Assembly: GCA_021815305.1 (NCBI GenBank)
Contig: JAKAHC010000008.1
Span: 1-64,000 of the forward strand
Origin: Deltaproteobacteria bacterium
Lineage (GTDB): Bacteria; Desulfobacterota; Deferrimicrobia; Deferrimicrobiales; Deferrimicrobiaceae
Direction: 5' to 3'
Length of the DNA stretch: 64,000 nt
The notes under the pieces are model-generated. The model searched no databases. It worked only from the letters and a program-made list of their open reading frames with translations, and was not told the DNA's origin. The translations under genes and the position numbers were made by a program. Shown piece after piece: positions 6,945 to 39,728 of this stretch; position 1 is the stretch's first letter, and each line of letters begins with the position of its first letter.

Positions 6945-9185
6945 GTGAAACGCACTCTCACGGCATGTTTCCTCCTCTTCCTTGCGATGTCGCCGGCCGG
7001 CGCCCCCGCCGCCGCGTCCGCCTACGATTCCGCCTTCCGCCAAGGGTGGTCTTTCCTGGAGAAGGAGCGGTACGAAGAGGCGCGCGAAACGCTGGCGAAG
7101 ATTCCTCCCGGGAAGTACGACCTCGGGGACTACGTCGTCTATTTCCAGGGGGTGGCCGCGGCCCGCGGAGGGGATCTGGCCGAGTCGACGGAAATCGCGC
7201 GCGGGCTTGCGGAGGAGTTCCCCGGGTCTCCGCTGCTGCCCTACATGCAGCACGAGATCGCCTACGCCGCGGCGCTCGACAACGATCTCTCCGCCGCCCG
7301 GGCCGCGCTCGGGGCGTCCCTCGGCAAGGTTTCCGGGAACGGCCGGAAAGCGGAAGAGGGGTACATCTCGGCGCTGCTGATCGAAGATGTCGGGGCCACT
7401 GCCGCCGCGGCGGAACGCCACCTGGAGAATTTCTCCGCCTACGGCGCGCAGGAGGCGGCGAACCTTTCCGCCGAGCGGCTGTGGAAGTGGAGGCAGGAGG
7501 GGAAACTGGCGGAGATGGACCTGCCGGTGGGATTCTACGCCCGGTTCGCCAGGGCGGCGGCGCGGGCCGGGGAGACCGAATGGGCGCGGGCGGTGTACGA
7601 GGAGGCGATGACCCGTTTCCCCCCGGGCGACGACTACTACGCCATGGTCCTGGATTTCGCGGAATTCCACCGGAAGCAGGGGGAGGTCGCGGCTGCGGCG
7701 TCGCTCCTGTCGAAATTGCGGGTCGAAGCGTCGCCGGCGATCCGGTCGGAAGTCCGGTTCCTGCGCGCCCGGGTCGATTGGAAAGCCGGTCGTCTCGATG
7801 ACGCGCGCAGGGAGTTCCAGGACATCGCGGACGGTGAAACCCGGTCCGGGACGGCCGACAGGGCGCGGTACTATGCCGCGTGGATCGCCGAGAACGAGGG
7901 AGACCTCCAGTCGGCGGCGGACCTGTTCCGCCGGCTTCGCCGATCGCAGGAAGACGGGATCCGCCGGGAATCGCTGTTCCGGTACCCCTACGCCCTGTAT
8001 CGGCTGAAACGGTACGAAGAGGCGGCCGCCACCTTCGATTCCGAAGCCGGGGGGGCCTTCGGGACGGTGGAGAGCGCCCGGCAGCGATTCTGGAAGGCGA
8101 GGGCGCTGCGGGACGCGGGCAAGAACAAGGAAGCGGAGAAGATTTTCGCGGACCTTTCCGCGGACGCGTTCGCCGGACCCTACGCCCTCTTCGCGGCGAG
8201 GGAGCTGGGCCGGGATCCGTTCCGCTTCCTGAACGCCCCCTCCAGCGGCGAGACGAAGGCGTGCGGCGAGGAGCGGGACCGTCTCTGGAGCAGGATCCGG
8301 CGGGCCCGCTGGGGGCCGGAGGACCGGGAAAAGGTGCGGAGAGCGGAACGGCTCACCCTGCTCGGGGTGATCGAATATGCCGTCCTCGAGGCGGAACGGG
8401 TGGATCGGGCGGCTGCCCGGAAAGCGATCGGCATGGCGGACGGGGGTGCCGCCGGCCTTTTCCGATACCTCGCCGGGGATCTCAAGGGCGGCATCCGCGC
8501 GACGTCGGGCATCCCCCTGGATGCGTCGCTGCCGGGGCTCGTCGACCGCATCCGGTACCCGCTCGCACCGGAGTTCCTCGCGGACTGCGATCGGAAACGG
8601 TCGGGGCTCGACCCGATGTTGCTGCACGCGGTCATCCGCCAGGAGTCCCGATTCCAGGCGGACGTGCTCTCTTCCGCGGGCGCCGTGGGGCTCATGCAGC
8701 TCATGCCCCGGACGGCGGCGGACACGGCGCGCAGGGAAAAGCTGCACAAGCCGCGGAAGCGGGACCTGGTCCGTCCCGCTCTCAACGTGCGGCTCGGCGC
8801 CGCCTATCTTTCCATGCTGGTGAAGAGGTGCGGGGGCGACTACTTCCGCGCGGTCGCGGCGTACAACTCGGGCGAGGTCGCCGTGTCCCGGTGGTGGGAC
8901 GGGGCCGACGGGGATCCCGCCGCGTTTCTCGAGGAGATCGCCTACAAGGAGACGCGCTTCTACCTGCGGAGGGTCTTCCTCAATCTTCTCCAATATTACC
9001 GGATCTACCGGCCGGAGATGTTCGTCCGGTACTTCCCCACCGCTCCCAGAGAAGCGAGGCAAGCTCCCGATGCCTTGCCGCTCCCGGAGCCCCCGGCGCC
9101 GGGCGACAACGTTCTTTCGCCTCCGCCCATGCCCGGAGGCGTCCCGACCGACGCGCCGCCGCCGCCAGCGCCCGCCGGAAAATAG
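6945..9185 (+). CDS. slt: Soluble lytic transglycosylase (Slt/MltE-type SLT domain)
   Basis: A 746-residue exported protein. The GTG at 6945 gives a signal peptide (KRTLTACFLLFLAMSPAG, then AAASA) and has GGAG upstream. A long helical, tetratricopeptide-like region forms the body. The C-terminal lysozyme-like SLT domain carries the catalytic glutamate in RQESRF (about residue 567), then GLMQLMPRTA, and AAYNSGE further on. Lytic transglycosylases cleave the MurNAc-GlcNAc bond to give 1,6-anhydro-MurNAc ends. A proline-rich tail of about 40 residues follows the domain and is encoded opposite the end of nagZ. The gene lies between salvage genes, which supports a role in wall turnover. Confidence 0.92.
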   Translation: MKRTLTACFLLFLAMSPAGAPAAASAYDSAFRQGWSFLEKERYEEARETLAKIPPGKYDLGDYVVYFQGVAAARGGDLAESTEIARGLAEEFPGSPLLPYMQHEIAYAAALDNDLSAARAALGASLGKVSGNGRKAEEGYISALLIEDVGATAAAAERHLENFSAYGAQEAANLSAERLWKWRQEGKLAEMDLPVGFYARFARAAARAGETEWARAVYEEAMTRFPPGDDYYAMVLDFAEFHRKQGEVAAAASLLSKLRVEASPAIRSEVRFLRARVDWKAGRLDDARREFQDIADGETRSGTADRARYYAAWIAENEGDLQSAADLFRRLRRSQEDGIRRESLFRYPYALYRLKRYEEAAATFDSEAGGAFGTVESARQRFWKARALRDAGKNKEAEKIFADLSADAFAGPYALFAARELGRDPFRFLNAPSSGETKACGEERDRLWSRIRRARWGPEDREKVRRAERLTLLGVIEYAVLEAERVDRAAARKAIGMADGGAAGLFRYLAGDLKGGIRATSGIPLDASLPGLVDRIRYPLAPEFLADCDRKRSGLDPMLLHAVIRQESRFQADVLSSAGAVGLMQLMPRTAADTARREKLHKPRKRDLVRPALNVRLGAAYLSMLVKRCGGDYFRAVAAYNSGEVAVSRWWDGADGDPAAFLEEIAYKETRFYLRRVFLNLLQYYRIYRPEMFVRYFPTAPREARQAPDALPLPEPPAPGDNVLSPPPMPGGVPTDAPPPPAPAGK

Positions 9186-10119
9186 CGCTCTCCCGGGCTT
9201 CCCGGCGCAGGCGCTCGATCGTCTCCGCCTGCGGTTCCTCGCCCCGGCACACCAGGAGGACATCGCATCCCGCGGTAACCGCCAGGACCGCCGCGTCGCC
9301 CACGCGGTACCGGCCTGCGATCGCCTTCATCTCCAGCGCGTCGGAAAAGACCGTTCCGCGGAACCGCATCTCCCTCCGCAACAGGTCCTTCAGAATTTTC
9401 GCGGAAAGGGTCGCGGGGAACGACCGGTCGAGGGAAGGGTATGCGACGTGCGCCGTCATGATTCCCGGGATCCCCGCGTGGACGGCCCGCCGGAAGGGCA
9501 GCAGTTCCCGGCGCGCCAGCGTCCTCCTTCCGGCCCGGACGACGGGCAGCGCCTCGTGGGAGTCCGCCGAGGTGTCGCCGTGGCCGGGGAAATGTTTCCC
9601 GACCGGGAGGATCCCGCGCGATGCCAACCCCGCGACGAAGGCGAGCCCGAGCCGGGCCACGGCCACCGGGTCGTGCGAAAACGCCCGGTCTCCGATCACC
9701 GGGTTGTCCGGATTGCTGTCCACGTCGAGGACGGGGGCGAAGTCCACGTCGACGCCCGCCGCGCGCAATTCCGCGCCGGTGGCCGCCCCCAGGCGGTTCG
9801 CCAGTTGCTCCCCGCGGCTTCCGAACAGCGAGCAGGCGCGCGCGGGGGGAAACCGGGTGAAGGGGGGCTCCTTCAGACGGGCCACCCGCCCCCCCTCCTG
9901 GTCGACGGCGATCAGCGGAAGAGGGTTCCGGGGGCCCGCGGCGGAGCGGATTTCGCGGCACAGGGAGCGCACCTGGGCGGGGCCCGCGACGTTGCGGGAG
10001 AACAGGACGACTCCTCCCACATCCCCCCGGGCGAGCCACCGGGAGAGCACGGCGGGGAGCGAGGCGCCCTCGAAACCGACCCACAGGGGGGACGCGATGT
10101 CGTCTTTCCCGAGGTTCAT
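8980..10119 (-). CDS. nagZ: Beta-N-acetylhexosaminidase NagZ (GH3)
   Basis: A 379-residue glycoside hydrolase family 3 enzyme. NagZ removes GlcNAc from GlcNAc-anhydroMurNAc(-peptide) during peptidoglycan recycling. Visible motifs are VDQEGGRVARL (72-82), the flexible His/Asp loop KHFPGHGDTSADSH (175-188) and FSDALEMKAI with the nucleophilic aspartate at about residue 260. The ATG at 10119 was chosen because the recognisable domain starts there; the frame is open for 26 more codons. No signal peptide is seen, so cytoplasmic. The last 68 codons run antisense to the 3' end of slt, an overlap of 206 bases, and the protein is about 40 residues longer than many NagZ. It is the last gene of the opp/dpp operon. 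Confidence 0.9.
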   Translation of the reverse strand: MNLGKDDIASPLWVGFEGASLPAVLSRWLARGDVGGVVLFSRNVAGPAQVRSLCREIRSAAGPRNPLPLIAVDQEGGRVARLKEPPFTRFPPARACSLFGSRGEQLANRLGAATGAELRAAGVDVDFAPVLDVDSNPDNPVIGDRAFSHDPVAVARLGLAFVAGLASRGILPVGKHFPGHGDTSADSHEALPVVRAGRRTLARRELLPFRRAVHAGIPGIMTAHVAYPSLDRSFPATLSAKILKDLLRREMRFRGTVFSDALEMKAIAGRYRVGDAAVLAVTAGCDVLLVCRGEEPQAETIERLRREARESAIFRRALAAAARRSGRLRAWAEAKERCRPAPGAPGAARHRELASLLWERWGSTGRTSPAGRSGNIGED

Positions 10120-10129
10120 CGTGGAAACT

Positions 10130-10981
10130 CTACCGCGTGTCCTCCCGCACGTCGAGGGCGTCGCGCAGGCCGTCGCCGACGAACTGGAACGCCACAACCG
10201 TCAGGAAGACGGCGGCGCCCGGCGCCGCCACGAGATGGGGCGCCACGAAGAGGAAGTGCCTCCCCTCGCCGATCATCGACCCCCACGACGCCGCGGGCGG
10301 GGAGACGCCCAACCCCAGGAAGGAGAGCCCCGCCTCCGCGACGATGGCCCTTGCGACACCGAACGTCGCCTCCACGACGATCGGGGAGAGGGTGTTGGGG
10401 AGGATGTGGGTCGCGAGCAGGCGCGTCGCGGGACTTCCCACGGCGCGGGCCGCCTCGACGAATTCCATCGCCTTCACCTTCAGCACCTGCGCCCGGACCA
10501 CCCGGGCGTAGCCGACCCACCCGAGCACCGAGAGGGCGAACAGGACGTTGCCGAAGGAGGGACCCCGCACCGCGGCGATCCCGATGGCGAGGAGGATGCC
10601 GGGAAAGGCGAGGAGGACATCGCACGCCCGGGTGAAGATGCGGTCGGCGGTCCCCCCGAAGAACCCGGCCAGCGCTCCCAGGAGGATGCCCGCGAGCAGC
10701 GAGACCGCCACCGTGCCGACCCCGACGGCGAGGGAGAGCCGCGCCCCGTAGACCAGGCGGGAGAGGACGTCCCGGCCGAACCGGTCCTGTCCCAGCCAGT
10801 GCGCCCGGTCGGGTCCGGCAAGCCCTTCGTCGAGGGATTGCGCCAGCGGATCGTACGGAGCGATCTCCGGCGCCAGCGCCGCGACGAGGAAAAAGACCGC
10901 GAGGAGGGCCATCCCCGCGGCGGCGCCCGGGCGGCGCGCGGTCCGGCGGAGAAGTGCGAGGGCTCCCGGGATTTCAGTCAT
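10130..10981 (-). CDS. dppC: Peptide ABC transporter permease, DppC/OppC type
   Basis: A 283-residue inner-membrane permease. The N-terminal segment ends in LGQDRFGRDVLSRLVYG, typical of the OppC/DppC subfamily. The cytoplasmic EAA loop EAARAVGSPATRLLATHILPN contacts the ATPase, and GLSFLGLGVSPPAASWGSMI follows. About six membrane segments are visible. Its start overlaps the dppB stop by eight bases, and nagZ starts ten bases after its stop, so the four genes form one minus-strand operon. Linkage to nagZ suggests import of murein-derived peptides, but oligopeptide specificity cannot be read from a permease. Confidence 0.9.
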   Translation of the reverse strand: MTEIPGALALLRRTARRPGAAAGMALLAVFFLVAALAPEIAPYDPLAQSLDEGLAGPDRAHWLGQDRFGRDVLSRLVYGARLSLAVGVGTVAVSLLAGILLGALAGFFGGTADRIFTRACDVLLAFPGILLAIGIAAVRGPSFGNVLFALSVLGWVGYARVVRAQVLKVKAMEFVEAARAVGSPATRLLATHILPNTLSPIVVEATFGVARAIVAEAGLSFLGLGVSPPAASWGSMIGEGRHFLFVAPHLVAAPGAAVFLTVVAFQFVGDGLRDALDVREDTR

Positions 10982-24714: not shown

Positions 24715-25695
24715 ATGTCTTCCTGGTTCGAGGACAATTCCCTGTCGATAGGAAGGACGCCTCTGGTGAGGCTCCACCGGATCGTGGAAGGCGCTCGGGC
24801 GACCGTGCTCGCCAAGGTGGAAGGGCGCAACCCGGCCTATTCCGTCAAGTGCCGGATCGGCGCCGCCATGGTGTGGGACGCGGAAAAAAAGGGGCTCCTG
24901 GGGCCGGGGAAGACGATCGTCGAGCCGACCTCCGGGAACACGGGGATCGCCCTCGCCTTCGTCGCCGCCGCGCGCGGGTACGACGTGGTCCTGACGATGC
25001 CGGAGACCATGAGCGTCGAGCGCCGGATGGTGCTGAAGGCGTTCGGTGCGAAGGTCGTGCTGACGGAGGGCGCCAAGGGGATGAAGGGGGCCATCGAGAA
25101 GGCGGAGCAGATCGTGGCGTCCGATCCCTCCAGGCACTTCCTGCCGCAGCAGTTTTCGAACCCCGCAAATCCCGACATCCACGAGGCGACCACGGGTCGG
25201 GAGATCTGGGAGGCGACCGAAGGCGAGGTCGACGTGATCGTTTCCGGGGTGGGCACCGGGGGAACGATCACCGGCATCTCCCGCTACATCAAGCGGGCGA
25301 AGGGGAAGAAGATCCTGTCGGTTGCTGTGGAGCCGGCGGCGAGTCCCGTCATCACGCAGAAGCGCAATGGGCAGCCGCTTTCCCCCGGCCCCCACAAGGT
25401 CCAGGGGATCGGCGCGGGGTTCATCCCGGATGTCCTCGACCTTTCCCTGATCGACCGCGTGGAGACGGTGAGCAACGAGGAGTCCATCGATTATGCGCGG
25501 CGGCTTGCCCGGGAGGAAGGGCTGCTCTCCGGGATCTCCTGCGGGGCGGCGGCGGCGGTGGCGGTGCGCCTGGCGAAGCACCCCGAGTTCGAAGGGAAGA
25601 TGATCGTCGCGATTCTCCCCGATGCGGGGGAGCGCTACCTCACTTCGGCGTTGTTCGAGGGGTGGTTCGAGGGGGAGGGCGCGGCGAGGATCTGA
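24715..25695 (+). CDS. cysK: Cysteine synthase A (O-acetylserine sulfhydrylase)
   Basis: A 326-residue PLP enzyme that makes cysteine from O-acetylserine and sulfide. The PLP lysine is in [11 protein letters not shown] (about K45), the asparagine loop is TSGNTG (71-76), and the phosphate loop is [10 protein letters not shown] near residue 180. [11 protein letters not shown] and the C-terminal [10 protein letters not shown] are also family features. The gene has its own strong promoter and an ideal ribosome binding site, so expression is likely high or sulfur-regulated. It converges with ubiE, with only four bases between the stops. Confidence 0.95.
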
Positions 25696-35776: not shown

Positions 35777-35930
35777 GGAACGCCTCCCCAGGGTTCGAAC
35801 CGATGCACCGGCGATCCGCCGCTCCGGCCATCATACGTCACAATTGGATGGACGGGGCGATGGGAGAGTGCCGATAATGGAAAGGGAACGTCATTTCATG
35901 CCCTGCTGCATCCGGGCGCGGGAGGATGAC

Positions 35931-36395
35931 ATGCGGAGAATATCGGTGTCGTTGACGGCGATTGCGATCGCGTTGGCGCTGTGCGGGCAATCCCTTGCGG
36001 CGCCGGACGGCGCGGCGATCTACAACAAATGCCTCGGATGCCACAAGCCCAACGGCGCGGGCATGCCGGGTCTTTTCCCGCCCCTCGCCGGGGACGCCGC
36101 AAGGCTCGTAAAAGCGAACAGGGACTTTCCGGTCGACGTGATCCTGTTCGGCCTCAAGGGAGAGATCCGCGCCGGGGGGAAGACCTACAACGGGACGATG
36201 CCCGCGTACGGAGGTGGTCTCAAGGACGACGAGGTCGCCGCTGTGCTGAACTACATCCTCTCGAACTGGGGGAACGACAAGCTGCTCCCCGCCGGGCACA
36301 AACCGTTCACCGCCGCGGAGGTGAAGAAGGAGCGCGCGAGAAAGCTCAGCCCCGAACAGGTCCATGAGGTCCGGGAAAAGCTGAAGCTGAATTAG
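35931..36395 (+). CDS. Monohaem cytochrome c, exported
   Basis: A 154-residue protein with a signal peptide (ISVSLTAIAIALALCGQSLAA), haem motif CLGCH (about residue 35) and a methionine ligand in GTMPAYGGGL. The class I cytochrome c fold fills about 25-115, followed by a charged C-terminal tail (EVKKERARKLSPEQVHE). GGAGG before the ATG gives the start. It converges with the cytochrome b fusion gene (16-base gap) and may accept electrons from that complex. CcsA (13.6 kb) belongs to its maturation route. Confidence 0.9.
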   Translation: MRRISVSLTAIAIALALCGQSLAAPDGAAIYNKCLGCHKPNGAGMPGLFPPLAGDAARLVKANRDFPVDVILFGLKGEIRAGGKTYNGTMPAYGGGLKDDEVAAVLNYILSNWGNDKLLPAGHKPFTAAEVKKERARKLSPEQVHEVREKLKLN

Positions 36396-36411
36396 CGCCG
36401 TTCCGGCGGGA

Positions 36412-38391
36412 TCACCGGGCACCCTCCCCTTTTCCGTTGCGGGAGCGCACCCGCAAACCGCCGAGGATGCCGATGACAAGGACGAACACCGCGCCCACGA
36501 GGAAGAAGTACGCCTTCGGCCGGATGCCGGGGTGCGCCACCTCCGCGCGGTCTACCCCGTTGAGGGTCAGGATGTAGGCCTCCAGGTCGGCGATCTCCTC
36601 CTGCGACAGCGAGTGCGTTTTCCCGAAGACCAGCATGCTCTTGGCGGGCAGCGGCCCCTTCGGGATCGACCCGTGCTGGAGGACCCGGTCGATGTTGGTG
36701 GCGAAGACTTCCGGATCCTGGTCGCGGTATTTCGCCCGGATCGGATTGAGCCCCGGGATCGTGCCTCCCTCGGCCCCGGGATTGGGAACGCCGCCCTTTC
36801 CGTCGGGGCCGTGACAGGAGACGCAGTAGAGCCGGAACAGCACGGCGCCGTGCTCCGAGCTTCCGACGACGGACGCCGCCGGCCCGGGAGGCCCCTGCTC
36901 CTCCGGTATCGGGCCGAAGCCGTGGACGGCGGACGGCGGTATGGAGGGGTTCGTCGACACGTGGGAGGGCGGCGTGGCGGGTTTCTCCGTGGCGGGAGGA
37001 GACGTCGGGGGTTTCGCCGGCGCGGACGGGGAGGTCCCCCCCAGGCTCATCAGGTAATCGACGATCTGGTTCAACTGATCGCGGGTAAGCGTCGGGTAGG
37101 GGGGCATGATCGTATTCGGGTTGTGGGATTTCGGGTTGCCGACCTGGTCCGCGAGCCATTCCCGGGAATGGCCCCGGCTGGATTCATCCGACAGGTCGGG
37201 GCCCACCGTGCCCCCCTTGCCGTTGATGCTGTGGCATCCGTCGCACCCCAGGGAGGTCATGAGCTTTGCTCCCTCGCGTGCGCTGGCCGACAGGTCCGCC
37301 GGCGAGCCGCTGGGCGGAGGCCCCGTGGTCCCCCCGACCCCGCCAGGGTGGCTGGTATACCCGATGACGGTGAGGCACACGACGAACCCGACCCAGATCA
37401 CTCCCCCCGCCATGGCGACGGGGCGCTTGCGGGGGTTTCGATCCGGGTTCCTGTCGTAGAAGGGGAGGAGTAGCAGGACCAGGATCCCGACGAGGGGGAT
37501 GCCCATCGTTCCGAGGGGCTCGAGGCGCCCAGGCAGGAATTTCAACGTTTCGTACAGGAAGAGGAAGTTCCATTCCGGCTTCGGGATGTAGGAAGTGTCC
37601 AGCGGGTCCGCCGGCCCCGCCACCGGCGGCGATGCGAAGGCGCACAGGGCGACGAGGAGAATCAGGAGGCCCGTCGCCACCACAGCGTCCTTGTATGCCT
37701 GGTCCGGCCAGAACTCCCCGGTGCGCAGCCGCTTCGATTCCGCCCACGGACCGACGCTGCCGAACCGGCGGAAGGCGACGAGATGAACGGCCAAAAACCC
37801 GAGGAGCATCGCCGGCAGGATCGCCACGTGCAGGACGAACATCCGGGACAGCGCCAGGGGGCCCATGCCGTCGCCTCCCCGCAGCAACCGCTTCACCACG
37901 GCGCCCACCACGGGAACGGTCCCCGCGATGCTCGTGCCCACCTCCGCCGCCCAGTATCCCGGTTCGTCCCAGGGCAGCGGGGCGCCGGTGAACACCATGG
38001 CCGCCGTCAGGAGCAGCAGGAGAACCCCCGCGATCCAGGTCAGCTCGCGGGGGGATTTGTACGCGCCGAAGAGGAACACGCGCGCGATGTGAAGCCCCAC
38101 GAGCACGATCATCGTATTGGCCCCCCAGTAGTGCAGGTTGTGGATCATCCAGCCGAAGGGGACCTCCGTGCGCAGGTAATTCAGGCTGTCGTAGGCGTGG
38201 TTGACGCTGGGGATGTAGTAAAAAAGCTGCCAGACCCCCGTTACGATCTGCAGGAGGAAGACGAACAGGGTGGCGCTGCCGAGGGCGTATGCGTAGCTCG
38301 GCCCCCCGGGGATCTCCTCTTCCAGCCCCTCGCGGAGGATGGTCCGAAAGGGGAACCGCTCGTCGAGCCAGCGGACGATCCTGTCGCTCAT
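36412..38391 (-). CDS. Cytochrome b (b6-type) fused to subunit-IV region and two haem c domains
   Basis: A 659-residue fusion. Residues 1-215 form a cytochrome b with haem ligands H87 and H101, H188 and H203; the 15-residue distance between the last two equals that of cytochrome b6. Residues about 225-350 are like subunit IV, with the Qo-site motif PEWN (272-275) in place of the usual PEWY. Two monohaem c domains follow, CDGCH (383-387) and CVSCH (523-527), joined by a proline-rich linker, and a final membrane helix ends the protein. It is co-transcribed behind the Rieske gene. It should oxidise menaquinol and pass electrons through the Rieske centre to its own haem c domains. Confidence 0.93.
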   Translation of the reverse strand: MSDRIVRWLDERFPFRTILREGLEEEIPGGPSYAYALGSATLFVFLLQIVTGVWQLFYYIPSVNHAYDSLNYLRTEVPFGWMIHNLHYWGANTMIVLVGLHIARVFLFGAYKSPRELTWIAGVLLLLLTAAMVFTGAPLPWDEPGYWAAEVGTSIAGTVPVVGAVVKRLLRGGDGMGPLALSRMFVLHVAILPAMLLGFLAVHLVAFRRFGSVGPWAESKRLRTGEFWPDQAYKDAVVATGLLILLVALCAFASPPVAGPADPLDTSYIPKPEWNFLFLYETLKFLPGRLEPLGTMGIPLVGILVLLLLPFYDRNPDRNPRKRPVAMAGGVIWVGFVVCLTVIGYTSHPGGVGGTTGPPPSGSPADLSASAREGAKLMTSLGCDGCHSINGKGGTVGPDLSDESSRGHSREWLADQVGNPKSHNPNTIMPPYPTLTRDQLNQIVDYLMSLGGTSPSAPAKPPTSPPATEKPATPPSHVSTNPSIPPSAVHGFGPIPEEQGPPGPAASVVGSSEHGAVLFRLYCVSCHGPDGKGGVPNPGAEGGTIPGLNPIRAKYRDQDPEVFATNIDRVLQHGSIPKGPLPAKSMLVFGKTHSLSQEEIADLEAYILTLNGVDRAEVAHPGIRPKAYFFLVGAVFVLVIGILGGLRVRSRNGKGEGAR

Positions 38392-38400
38392 GGGGGTCTC

Positions 38401-38934
38401 CTATACCGGGATCTTCCCGGAAATGCCGAGCTCGAACCGTTCCCATTCCACGTACAGGTCGCCGCTTTCGATCTTCATGGGCAGCGTGTCGAGGGGGCGG
38501 GGCGCAGGCCCCGCCAGCACCTTCCCGTCCAGAGAGAACAGGCTCCCGTGGCAGGGACACAGGAATCGGCCGATGTTCGGTTCCCAGTCGTACCGGCATC
38601 CGAGGTGCGTGCAGATCGGCGAGTACACGGTGATGTCCGTGGCGGAGCGCCGTACCACCCAGACGTTGCGGACCACGGTTTCCCGGAGATAGGCCTCGGA
38701 GGACCGGTCGGTGAACGACACGGACGTCGGCTGCCCCACGGGAAGGGCGTCGACCTTCGCCACCCGGGACCATCGTGTCGGTTTTTTCCGGAATGCGGGG
38801 CCGATCAGCGACCCGATCAGCGGGATGCCGAGCACGAGGCCGCCGAATGCGGCAAGGACGCCGATCGCGATCTTGAAGAATCCGCGTCGCGTCGGTTCGG
38901 GGGGGGATTCGGGATGGGCGCGTCCTTCGTCCAT
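38401..38934 (-). CDS. Rieske iron-sulfur subunit of the b/c complex
   Basis: A 177-residue protein. The N-terminus has a twin-arginine motif (PTRRGFFKIAIG) and a membrane anchor. The 2Fe-2S ligands are in CTHLGC and CPCHG (about 118-142), as in the quinol oxidase Rieske family. DITVYSPICTHLGCRYDW is the cluster segment. The cytochrome b fusion starts nine bases downstream of its stop, so the pair forms a compact two-gene complex. No separate cytochrome c1 or f gene is adjacent, since the haem c domains are fused to cytochrome b. Confidence 0.94.
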   Translation of the reverse strand: MDEGRAHPESPPEPTRRGFFKIAIGVLAAFGGLVLGIPLIGSLIGPAFRKKPTRWSRVAKVDALPVGQPTSVSFTDRSSEAYLRETVVRNVWVVRRSATDITVYSPICTHLGCRYDWEPNIGRFLCPCHGSLFSLDGKVLAGPAPRPLDTLPMKIESGDLYVEWERFELGISGKIPV

Positions 38935-39103
38935 GTTCGTCGCGGCTCCTCTCGGGTCCGATGAGATGATCGTCGAGAGGCGGGGTAAACCTCCGGGTCG
39001 TGAAGGTCCCCGGCACCTCCCGTCCGATGTGCTGCGCTCTTCCGGTATTGTGCATTATTCCACAGGAAGCCGGGAAGCGGATAGCTTACGCATCCGCGCG
39101 ACC

Positions 39104-39445
39104 TCAGCGAACGACGATACGGAAGACCCTGCGCATCCCTACGGCGGAGGCGGCGGAGCAGAGCGTCGTTCCGGGGACCACTCCCCGGAATCCCAGCCCG
39201 TACGGGGTGTCGACGGGCTCGGCGACCTTCGGATCGTCGCAGATGGGGATTTTCGCCGGGCATACGACCTGGCCGGATCCGCAGACGTCGAAGGTCTCTC
39301 CGGCACGCAGTTCGACAGGGTACGGTTCGTCCGCCGGCGGGACGCCGGTCGCCGCTCCGGAGGGAACGAACAGGAGCGTCCCGGCAAGCGCGGCAAGAGC
39401 GGTCCATGTCGCCAGGACCCCCACCGATTGCGAGACGCGCGCCAT
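39104..39445 (-). CDS. Small exported protein of unknown function
   Basis: A 113-residue protein with a signal peptide (GVLATWTALAALAGTLLF and onwards) and four cysteines in the mature part at about 55, 62, 69 and 96. This suggests two disulfides or metal binding. GAGGAG lies seven bases before the ATG at 39445, which supports the start. The C-terminal segment GLGFRGVVPGTTLCSAASA is glycine-rich. No family recognised. It lies 170 bases upstream of the Rieske gene on the same strand. Confidence 0.65.
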   Translation of the reverse strand: MARVSQSVGVLATWTALAALAGTLLFVPSGAATGVPPADEPYPVELRAGETFDVCGSGQVVCPAKIPICDDPKVAEPVDTPYGLGFRGVVPGTTLCSAASAVGMRRVFRIVVR

Positions 39446-39539
39446 GGGAAACTCCTCGTTGCGGACTACCTTCAGGGTACTCTTCGGGGGATGCCCACGC
39501 AACGAGGTTGTCGCCGATGTGGTCGCCGACGCGCCGGTT

Positions 39540-39650
39540 CGGAAGTCCGCCCGCGCACGTTCGTTTTCGTGGCGAACCCCCAGGGGCCGGCCATCACGCC
39601 GGACGGAAAATTCCCGTACGTCGCCGACCGCAACGACAACAACAAGGGGT
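39540..39650 (+). pseudogene. Possible fragment of a YVTN-type beta-propeller gene
   Basis: One frame reads RTFVFVANPQGPAITPDGKF then PYVADRNDNN. It resembles the strand-turn-strand of YVTN repeats (VFVAN, then a gap, then TPDGKF-x-YVA). No start codon with a ribosome binding site, and only one repeat, is present, and the frame runs straight into the tRNA gene. It may be a remnant or a chance match. Confidence 0.3.
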
Positions 39651-39653
39651 TCA

Positions 39654-39728
39654 TGGAGCCGGCGGTCGGGATTGAACCGACGACCTGCTGATTACGAATC
39701 AGCTGCTCTACCACTGAGCTACGCCGGC
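39654..39728 (-). tRNA. tRNA-Thr (anticodon CGT)
   Basis: The minus strand folds as a complete cloverleaf: a 7-bp acceptor stem (GCCGGCG/CGCCGGC), D arm GTAGCTCAGTGGTAGAGC, anticodon stem GCTGA/TCAGC with loop TTCGTAA, and T arm with GGTTCAATCCC. The anticodon CGT reads ACG (threonine). Discriminator T and a genomically encoded CCA end the gene. The plus-strand coordinates include the CCA. Confidence 0.95.

Follow-up and report, generated by a model that had tools for sequence, protein, structure and literature searches.

How the second proton leaves the quinol oxidation (Qo) site is an open question even in the textbook cytochrome bc enzyme. The available parts of two reports describe redundant proton wires at this site, formed by Tyr147, Glu295, Tyr297 and water (PMC11898062, PMC12199298); in the simulations, Tyr147 was necessary and Glu295 and Tyr297 acted as redundant relays (PMC11898062). 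For 9,993 sequences near that of R. sphaeroides, PMC12199298 gives a conservation of 99.9% for Tyr147, 94.2% for Glu295 and 98.9% for Tyr297, and double substitutions as absent from the same set. A Tyr147Ser exchange leads to a loss of activity for which Met154Val compensates, and further second-site substitutions direct the network along other routes, according to the accessible text of PMC10583091. With respect to architecture, a di-haem c part fused to cytochrome b is described for Kuste3096-3097 of Kuenenia stuttgartiensis (PMC12954380, in part), so that the b-c-c fusion as such is already known. Here, we analysed a 64,000-nucleotide stretch of contig JAKAHC010000008.1 (assembly GCA_021815305.1, a member of the Deferrimicrobiaceae), called the window in the following, which encodes a cytochrome b fused to two haem c domains next to a Rieske protein. 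The fused protein of the window is referred to as P0001; G numbers denote genomes and L numbers loci or stretches of relatives.

The Qo motif of P0001 reads PEWN, as the original prediction had it, with Asn275 at the position of Rhodobacter Tyr297 and Glu273 retained at that of Glu295. Overlooked in that prediction were the orientation of the gene, which lies on the minus strand, and the loss of the Tyr147 equivalent, which is replaced by Ala137 in P0001 and is gone from all four members of its clade. We checked the numbering with a bc1-type cytochrome b (L152, from G298) aligned with solved bc1 chains: it carries a methionine seven residues past the tyrosine of GYxLPW, matching the Tyr147/Met154 pair in the available text of PMC10583091, and its three tyrosines align opposite Ala137, Asn275 and Tyr280 of P0001. 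On the given sequence, PEWN is real, rare and poorly accounted for by the type of quinone; for a specialist, the unexpected finding would be that both tyrosines are lost.

Is the altered Qo site shared by relatives? At E <= 1e-60, 21 of 395 genomes of the phylum match P0001, and the match spans about the whole length in three of them, the window's own genome, G384 and G211. In the family of the latter two, the fused protein occurs in 2 of 17 genomes. One scan of genome contigs yielded one further relative, L032, in a metagenome-assembled genome of Candidatus Auribacterota, by its title another phylum; there, 3 of 44 genomes match at E <= 1e-30, with a long match in L032's own genome only. In the window's own family, a full-length match was missing from the 23 other genomes, of which at least seven hold split b6 and subunit IV frames and three an unfused cytochrome b; among viral contigs, 20 stretches matched a pattern and none encodes a relative. 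Identity to P0001 is 53, 49 and 51% for the three relatives, and all four proteins group in one clade (support 100/100, 45-row tree), within which the branching order is weak (90/60); G384 and G211, both with PEWY, are sisters. Each of the three relatives has its c domains fused, against the possibility raised in the original prediction that close relatives encode them separately.

Within this clade, the position of Tyr297 reads Asn in P0001, Gln in L032 and Tyr in G384 and G211, so that the motif is not lineage-specific, a question that the original prediction had raised, and the position of Tyr147 reads Ala, Ala, Pro and Pro in the same order. Thus the Tyr147 equivalent is missing from 4/4 members and that of Tyr297 from 2/4, and P0001 and its Auribacterota relative lack both tyrosines while retaining the glutamate. 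The Glu295 equivalent and Tyr280, by position Rhodobacter Tyr302, are kept in all four. The compensating position Met154 is occupied by Pro in P0001, Leu in L032 and Arg in G384 and G211. Tyr268, four residues before the proline of PEW, is likewise present in every member and would be a candidate substitute relay, yet it is not specific to the tyrosine loss, as several fused cytochromes b with an intact Tyr147 carry it too.

PEWN is a single base change away from PEWY (TAC to AAC) and could thus stem from faulty sequencing or assembly of this one genome; no second genome of the genus was listed among the relatives searched. We consider such an error very improbable, as the assembly consists of 2.77 Mb in only 13 contigs, the glutamine of the Auribacterota motif (PEWQ) is two base changes away from tyrosine, and residue 137 is not a tyrosine either. 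The glutamine in that relative together with the alanine at residue 137 argues for a genuinely altered Qo site.

We next consider how unusual these residues are in the phylum, in a sample selected for similarity to P0001 and for matches to the PEWY pattern, for which reason the fractions are not natural frequencies. The position of Tyr147 holds a tyrosine in 58 of 70 distinct cytochrome b N-domains and another residue in 12. In 60 cytochromes b both Qo positions were readable; 45 carry Tyr at both, and the column of Asn275 is Tyr in 53, which argues that PEWN is not due to chance. The seven replacements of Tyr297 comprise Phe (2), Trp (3; L030, L046 and L048), Asn (1) and Gln (1), and both tyrosines are replaced in four proteins, P0001, L032, L046 and L048, the last two with Asp/Trp. 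Tyr147 is not untouchable in the phylum, since it is replaced elsewhere by Phe in L007, Val in L018, Gln in L042 and L044, His in L047 and, in a doubtful alignment, Phe in L015. Another altered Qo site is that of L046 and L048, a tentative sister group of the clade (91/70) that carries Asp at position 147, Trp at 297 and Asn at 302; their neighbouring genes resemble, by eye, paralogous exported proteins, and L048 has a Rieske-like frame (CSHLAC/CPCHSG).

At the DNA level, 12 of the 395 genomes contain a match to the pattern P-[DE]-W-[HKNQ]-F-[LF]-x-x-[YF]. Eleven of these loci lack a cytochrome b frame and a control pattern matched 16 times (counted from the table), so that the eleven are chance matches; only the window's lies inside a cytochrome b, and PEWN is hence not common in relatives. 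The original prediction had named a common occurrence in close relatives as speaking against it. For the tyrosine version, matches occurred in 56 of the 395 genomes; all 30 loci fetched hold a cytochrome b or b6 frame. Such patterns miss Qo motifs that are trailed by other letters. As a whole word, PEWN appears in 4 papers of the open-access literature, and judged by the listing none of them concerns cytochrome b. Kao and Hunte (2014) reportedly gave the Qo motif variants as P-[EDVP]-W-[YF]; PEWN falls outside this range, its fourth residue being neither Tyr nor Phe. We nevertheless treat the motif as variable and not as excluding P0001 from the bc complexes, because the protein has all four His ligands for two b haems, the neighbouring Rieske protein has both Cys-His motifs (CxHxGC and CxCHxS), and homology agrees.

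What would such a complex do? The window's genome is 97% complete, and a search of it with P0001 found the fused gene as the only cytochrome b, plus one cytochrome c domain elsewhere. It also holds a cbb3 oxidase set with CcoN (516.8 bits, under the cut-off of 583.15) and a fused CcoO/CcoP (CcoO 215.3 bits, over 200.65). A second haem-copper gene adjoins a di-haem c protein, in which the additional cytochrome c domain sits, and we read the two as a NorB/NorC-like pair. A MqnA-like gene exceeds its Pfam cut-off, MenB stays below its own, and UbiG reaches the cut-off in none of the four genomes; menaquinone synthesis by the futalosine route is therefore likely. From these genes, we judge that the window probably encodes a working menaquinol:cytochrome c reductase that operates by a Q cycle and delivers electrons to the cbb3 oxidase. 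The Qo site, where the cytochrome b part meets the Rieske protein, would oxidise menaquinol; the first electron would pass to the Rieske cluster and, via both fused haem c domains, reach a soluble cytochrome c, and from there the cbb3 oxidase and perhaps also a nitric oxide (NO) reductase, while the other would traverse the membrane via the two b haems. With Tyr147 changed to Ala and Tyr297 to Asn, the second proton may leave through Glu273 and water, in a Qo pocket that would be more open and more hydrated and in which turnover may be slower or less tightly guarded.

Alternatively, the Qo site could be relaxed or degenerate, in a complex that is slow, leaky or not meant for efficient bifurcation and in which positions 147 and 297 drift freely. 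The mixture of residues that a single clade shows at both positions would fit such a drift, as would the Asp, Trp and Asn of its tentative sisters and the 12 of 70 surveyed N-domains without Tyr147. However, the ligands of the haems and of the cluster are conserved, as are Tyr302, the architecture and the first two residues (PE) of the motif, and the protein is the sole cytochrome b found in a nearly complete genome with a cytochrome c-dependent oxidase. All four clade members keep both the architecture and the Rieske protein, and one of them belongs to another phylum; this points to selection and not to decay, and we regard a relaxed site as doubtful.

The original prediction had also connected the asparagine with menaquinol. 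In this explanation, the exchange of Tyr for Asn is an adaptation to low-potential menaquinol and a Rieske cluster of lower potential. The Rieske protein of the window retains Ser131 and has Phe133 in the place of the tyrosine of high-potential Rieske proteins, and across the clade the two sites co-vary in 4/4 cases, with CHGSLF or CHGSVF beside PEWN or PEWQ and CHGSVY (twice) beside PEWY. Loss of this tyrosine lowers the potential of the yeast Rieske protein by about 65 mV, but Kustd1480 of Kuenenia, with Ser/Phe, has an unexpectedly high potential (both in the available part of PMC12954380). In addition, the second residue of the Qo motif is stated to correlate with redox potential and quinone in the accessible text of PMC9162462. 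The MqnA-like gene would agree with an adaptation to menaquinol. The co-variation may however be a single event, as n = 4 and the PEWY pair are sisters, and 45 of 60 cytochromes b retain both tyrosines, many of them beside Phe-type Rieske proteins. PEWY-bearing G384 moreover has a MenB-like gene just below the cut-off (332.4 vs 342.7 bits). We therefore consider this adaptation unlikely as an explanation, and the use of PEWN as a marker of menaquinol is weakened by G384 and by the relatives that keep their tyrosines.

The fused gene of G384 continues in frame, with no intervening stop codon, through an entire Rieske domain (L049, 8111-10588, minus strand). The resulting chain has 825 residues when counted from the listed TTG, and 818 when counted from the Met in line with the starts of the other members. 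It is a possible single-gene bc complex; for a single case, a stop lost by assembly error is the alternative. The topology would fit, since the extra terminal helix would return the chain to the cytoplasmic side, where the Rieske anchor starts. Among the matches listed in the open-access literature, judged by title and opening of the abstract, there was no natural single chain of cytochrome b and Rieske protein. We speculate, as a tentative proposal to which we give appreciable but clearly minority weight, that a natural bc clade runs a working Q cycle with neither Qo tyrosine, using the PEW glutamate and water alone, and is compacting toward a single-gene enzyme, with the extra terminal helix enabling the G384 chain of about 820 residues. 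If a natural enzyme lacking the two tyrosines is functional, it would put the simulation model to a direct test, and the clade supplies a series at positions 147/297 (P/Y, P/Y, A/Q and A/N). Should the single chain prove real, it would offer an easily expressed, minimal bc complex.

Several points weigh against a working Q-cycle enzyme of this kind. A Qo site without either tyrosine might not bifurcate properly, PEWN is known from one genome, and menaquinone is indicated by one gene family. No NCBIfam Nor model is listed for the NorB/NorC-like pair, and the NorC-like protein passes only the NCBIfam cut-off of SoxX (67.7 vs 61 bits). Finally, an AlphaFold2 model of P0001 together with the L032 protein reached a mean predicted local distance difference test (pLDDT) score of 36.5 and a predicted template modelling (pTM) score of 0.25.

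The features of the locus are collected in the table. Pfam assigns Cytochrome_B (164.5 bits) and Cytochrom_B_C (40.7 bits) to P0001, as well as c-type haem domains (PF00034 and PF13442, two stretches each), all above the gathering cut-offs. Pfam, the alignment to b6 and the hydrophobicity thus agree with the original prediction of b6-type ligands, a subunit-IV part, two CxxCH motifs and a terminal helix in one chain, and the calculated mass of 70.5 kDa with its estimate of about 70 kDa. The Rieske gene lies on the same strand, 9 bp upstream, and together with the domains this bears out the predicted two-gene quinol:cytochrome c reductase. The gene of the mono-haem cytochrome c is tail to tail with the fused gene and ends 16 bases from its end.

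Table. Features of the fused cytochrome b locus and its surroundings (positions in the window).
Feature	Position	Strand	Basis or remark
Probable acquired cassette: cytochrome c, fused cytochrome b, Rieske, small exported protein	35835..39653		absent at syntenic place in G006; left edge approximate
Mono-haem cytochrome c, signal-like N terminus, candidate electron acceptor	35931..36395	plus	start picked by eye at signal-peptide Met
Fused cytochrome b6/subunit IV/cytochrome c/cytochrome c, 659 aa, ATG start	36412..38391	minus	open reading frame, Pfam
C-terminal hydrophobic helix, residues 628-646	36454..36510	minus	hydrophobicity only
Second CxxCH, residues 523-527	36811..36825	minus	
First CxxCH, residues 383-387	37231..37245	minus	
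Qo motif PEWN, residues 272-275	37567..37578	minus	
Asn275 codon AAC	37567..37569	minus	
His203, haem b ligand	37783..37785	minus	alignment to b6
His188, haem b ligand	37828..37830	minus	alignment to b6
Ala137, position of Rhodobacter Tyr147	37981..37983	minus	GYxLPW reads GAPLPW
His101, haem b ligand	38089..38091	minus	alignment to b6
His87, haem b ligand	38131..38133	minus	alignment to b6
Rieske [2Fe-2S] protein, 177 aa	38401..38934	minus	PF00355, 44.9 bits
Small, probably exported protein inside cassette	39104-39502	minus	no NCBIfam match
tRNA-Thr (CGT)	39654..39728	minus	

The cassette borders on a tRNA-Thr gene. By the adjacent RNase G gene (90%), G006 is the closest relative; its gene order is equal on both sides, and none of the four cassette genes lies between its tRNA-Thr and a small frame beside a ybaK-like gene. 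DNA homology to G006, G018, G010 and G014 stops at positions 39654, 39654, 39653 and 39647 of the window, i.e. at the 3' end of the tRNA gene or at most 7 bases from it. The 3'-terminal 21 bases of the tRNA gene recur in G006, 311 bases further on (L147, 2293-2624). Since the homology ends at the tRNA 3' end and G006 is empty with a duplicated 3' end, we suggest that the cassette was probably gained horizontally at a tRNA-Thr integration site; its loss in G006 is the alternative. The empty site is demonstrated by G006 only, because no ybaK-like gene turned up in the fetched stretches of G018, G010, G014 and G001, the last of which also gave no tRNA. A copy of the tRNA-Thr 3' end was not found near the far side of the cassette, with only a 12-base match at 25328 in the whole window, and an unusual guanine-plus-cytosine content was not seen across the cassette.

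Fused cytochromes b occur in further settings. The protein of L032 carries three CxxCH motifs, and at its locus (447-2735; 7585-10216) the complex lies, by eye, near HemA and an NO-reductase-like gene, with cytochrome bd-like genes on the opposite side. A separate b-c-c fusion is present in L093 and L094 (family f60), in frames of 603 and 615 residues with two CxxCH, PDWY and Tyr147 kept; no terminal helix is visible by eye in L093.

Among the described systems, Kuste3096-3097 is similar in having two genes, with a two-haem c part and cytochrome b in one chain and a separate Rieske protein, a likeness drawn from the description in the available part of PMC12954380. The mono-haem b-c fusions of the phylum (L003, L035-L039, L041 and L044) also join a c domain to cytochrome b, with a Rieske motif in the fetched stretches of L037, L041 and L044; unlike P0001, they have one CxxCH and keep the Tyr147 equivalent, save for Gln in L044. 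The best solved relatives of P0001 are the b6 chains of b6f complexes, which align without a gap over residues 5-215 (181 bits) and space the ligands alike, with 13 residues between His87 and His101 and 14 between His188 and His203. In contrast to b6f, b6 and subunit IV form one open reading frame in P0001, cytochrome c domains take the place of cytochrome f, and the equivalents of Tyr147 and Tyr297 are missing. The position of b6 Cys35, which we take to be the cysteine of haem ci, is Ala in P0001 and Cys in L032 alone of the four members. In the Firmicute menaquinol:cytochrome c reductase (QcrABC), a c domain is known on subunit IV only. P0001 thus resembles that system in the fusion of a c domain to part of the cytochrome b system and in the likely use of menaquinol, and differs from it in that b6, subunit IV and two c domains form one chain.
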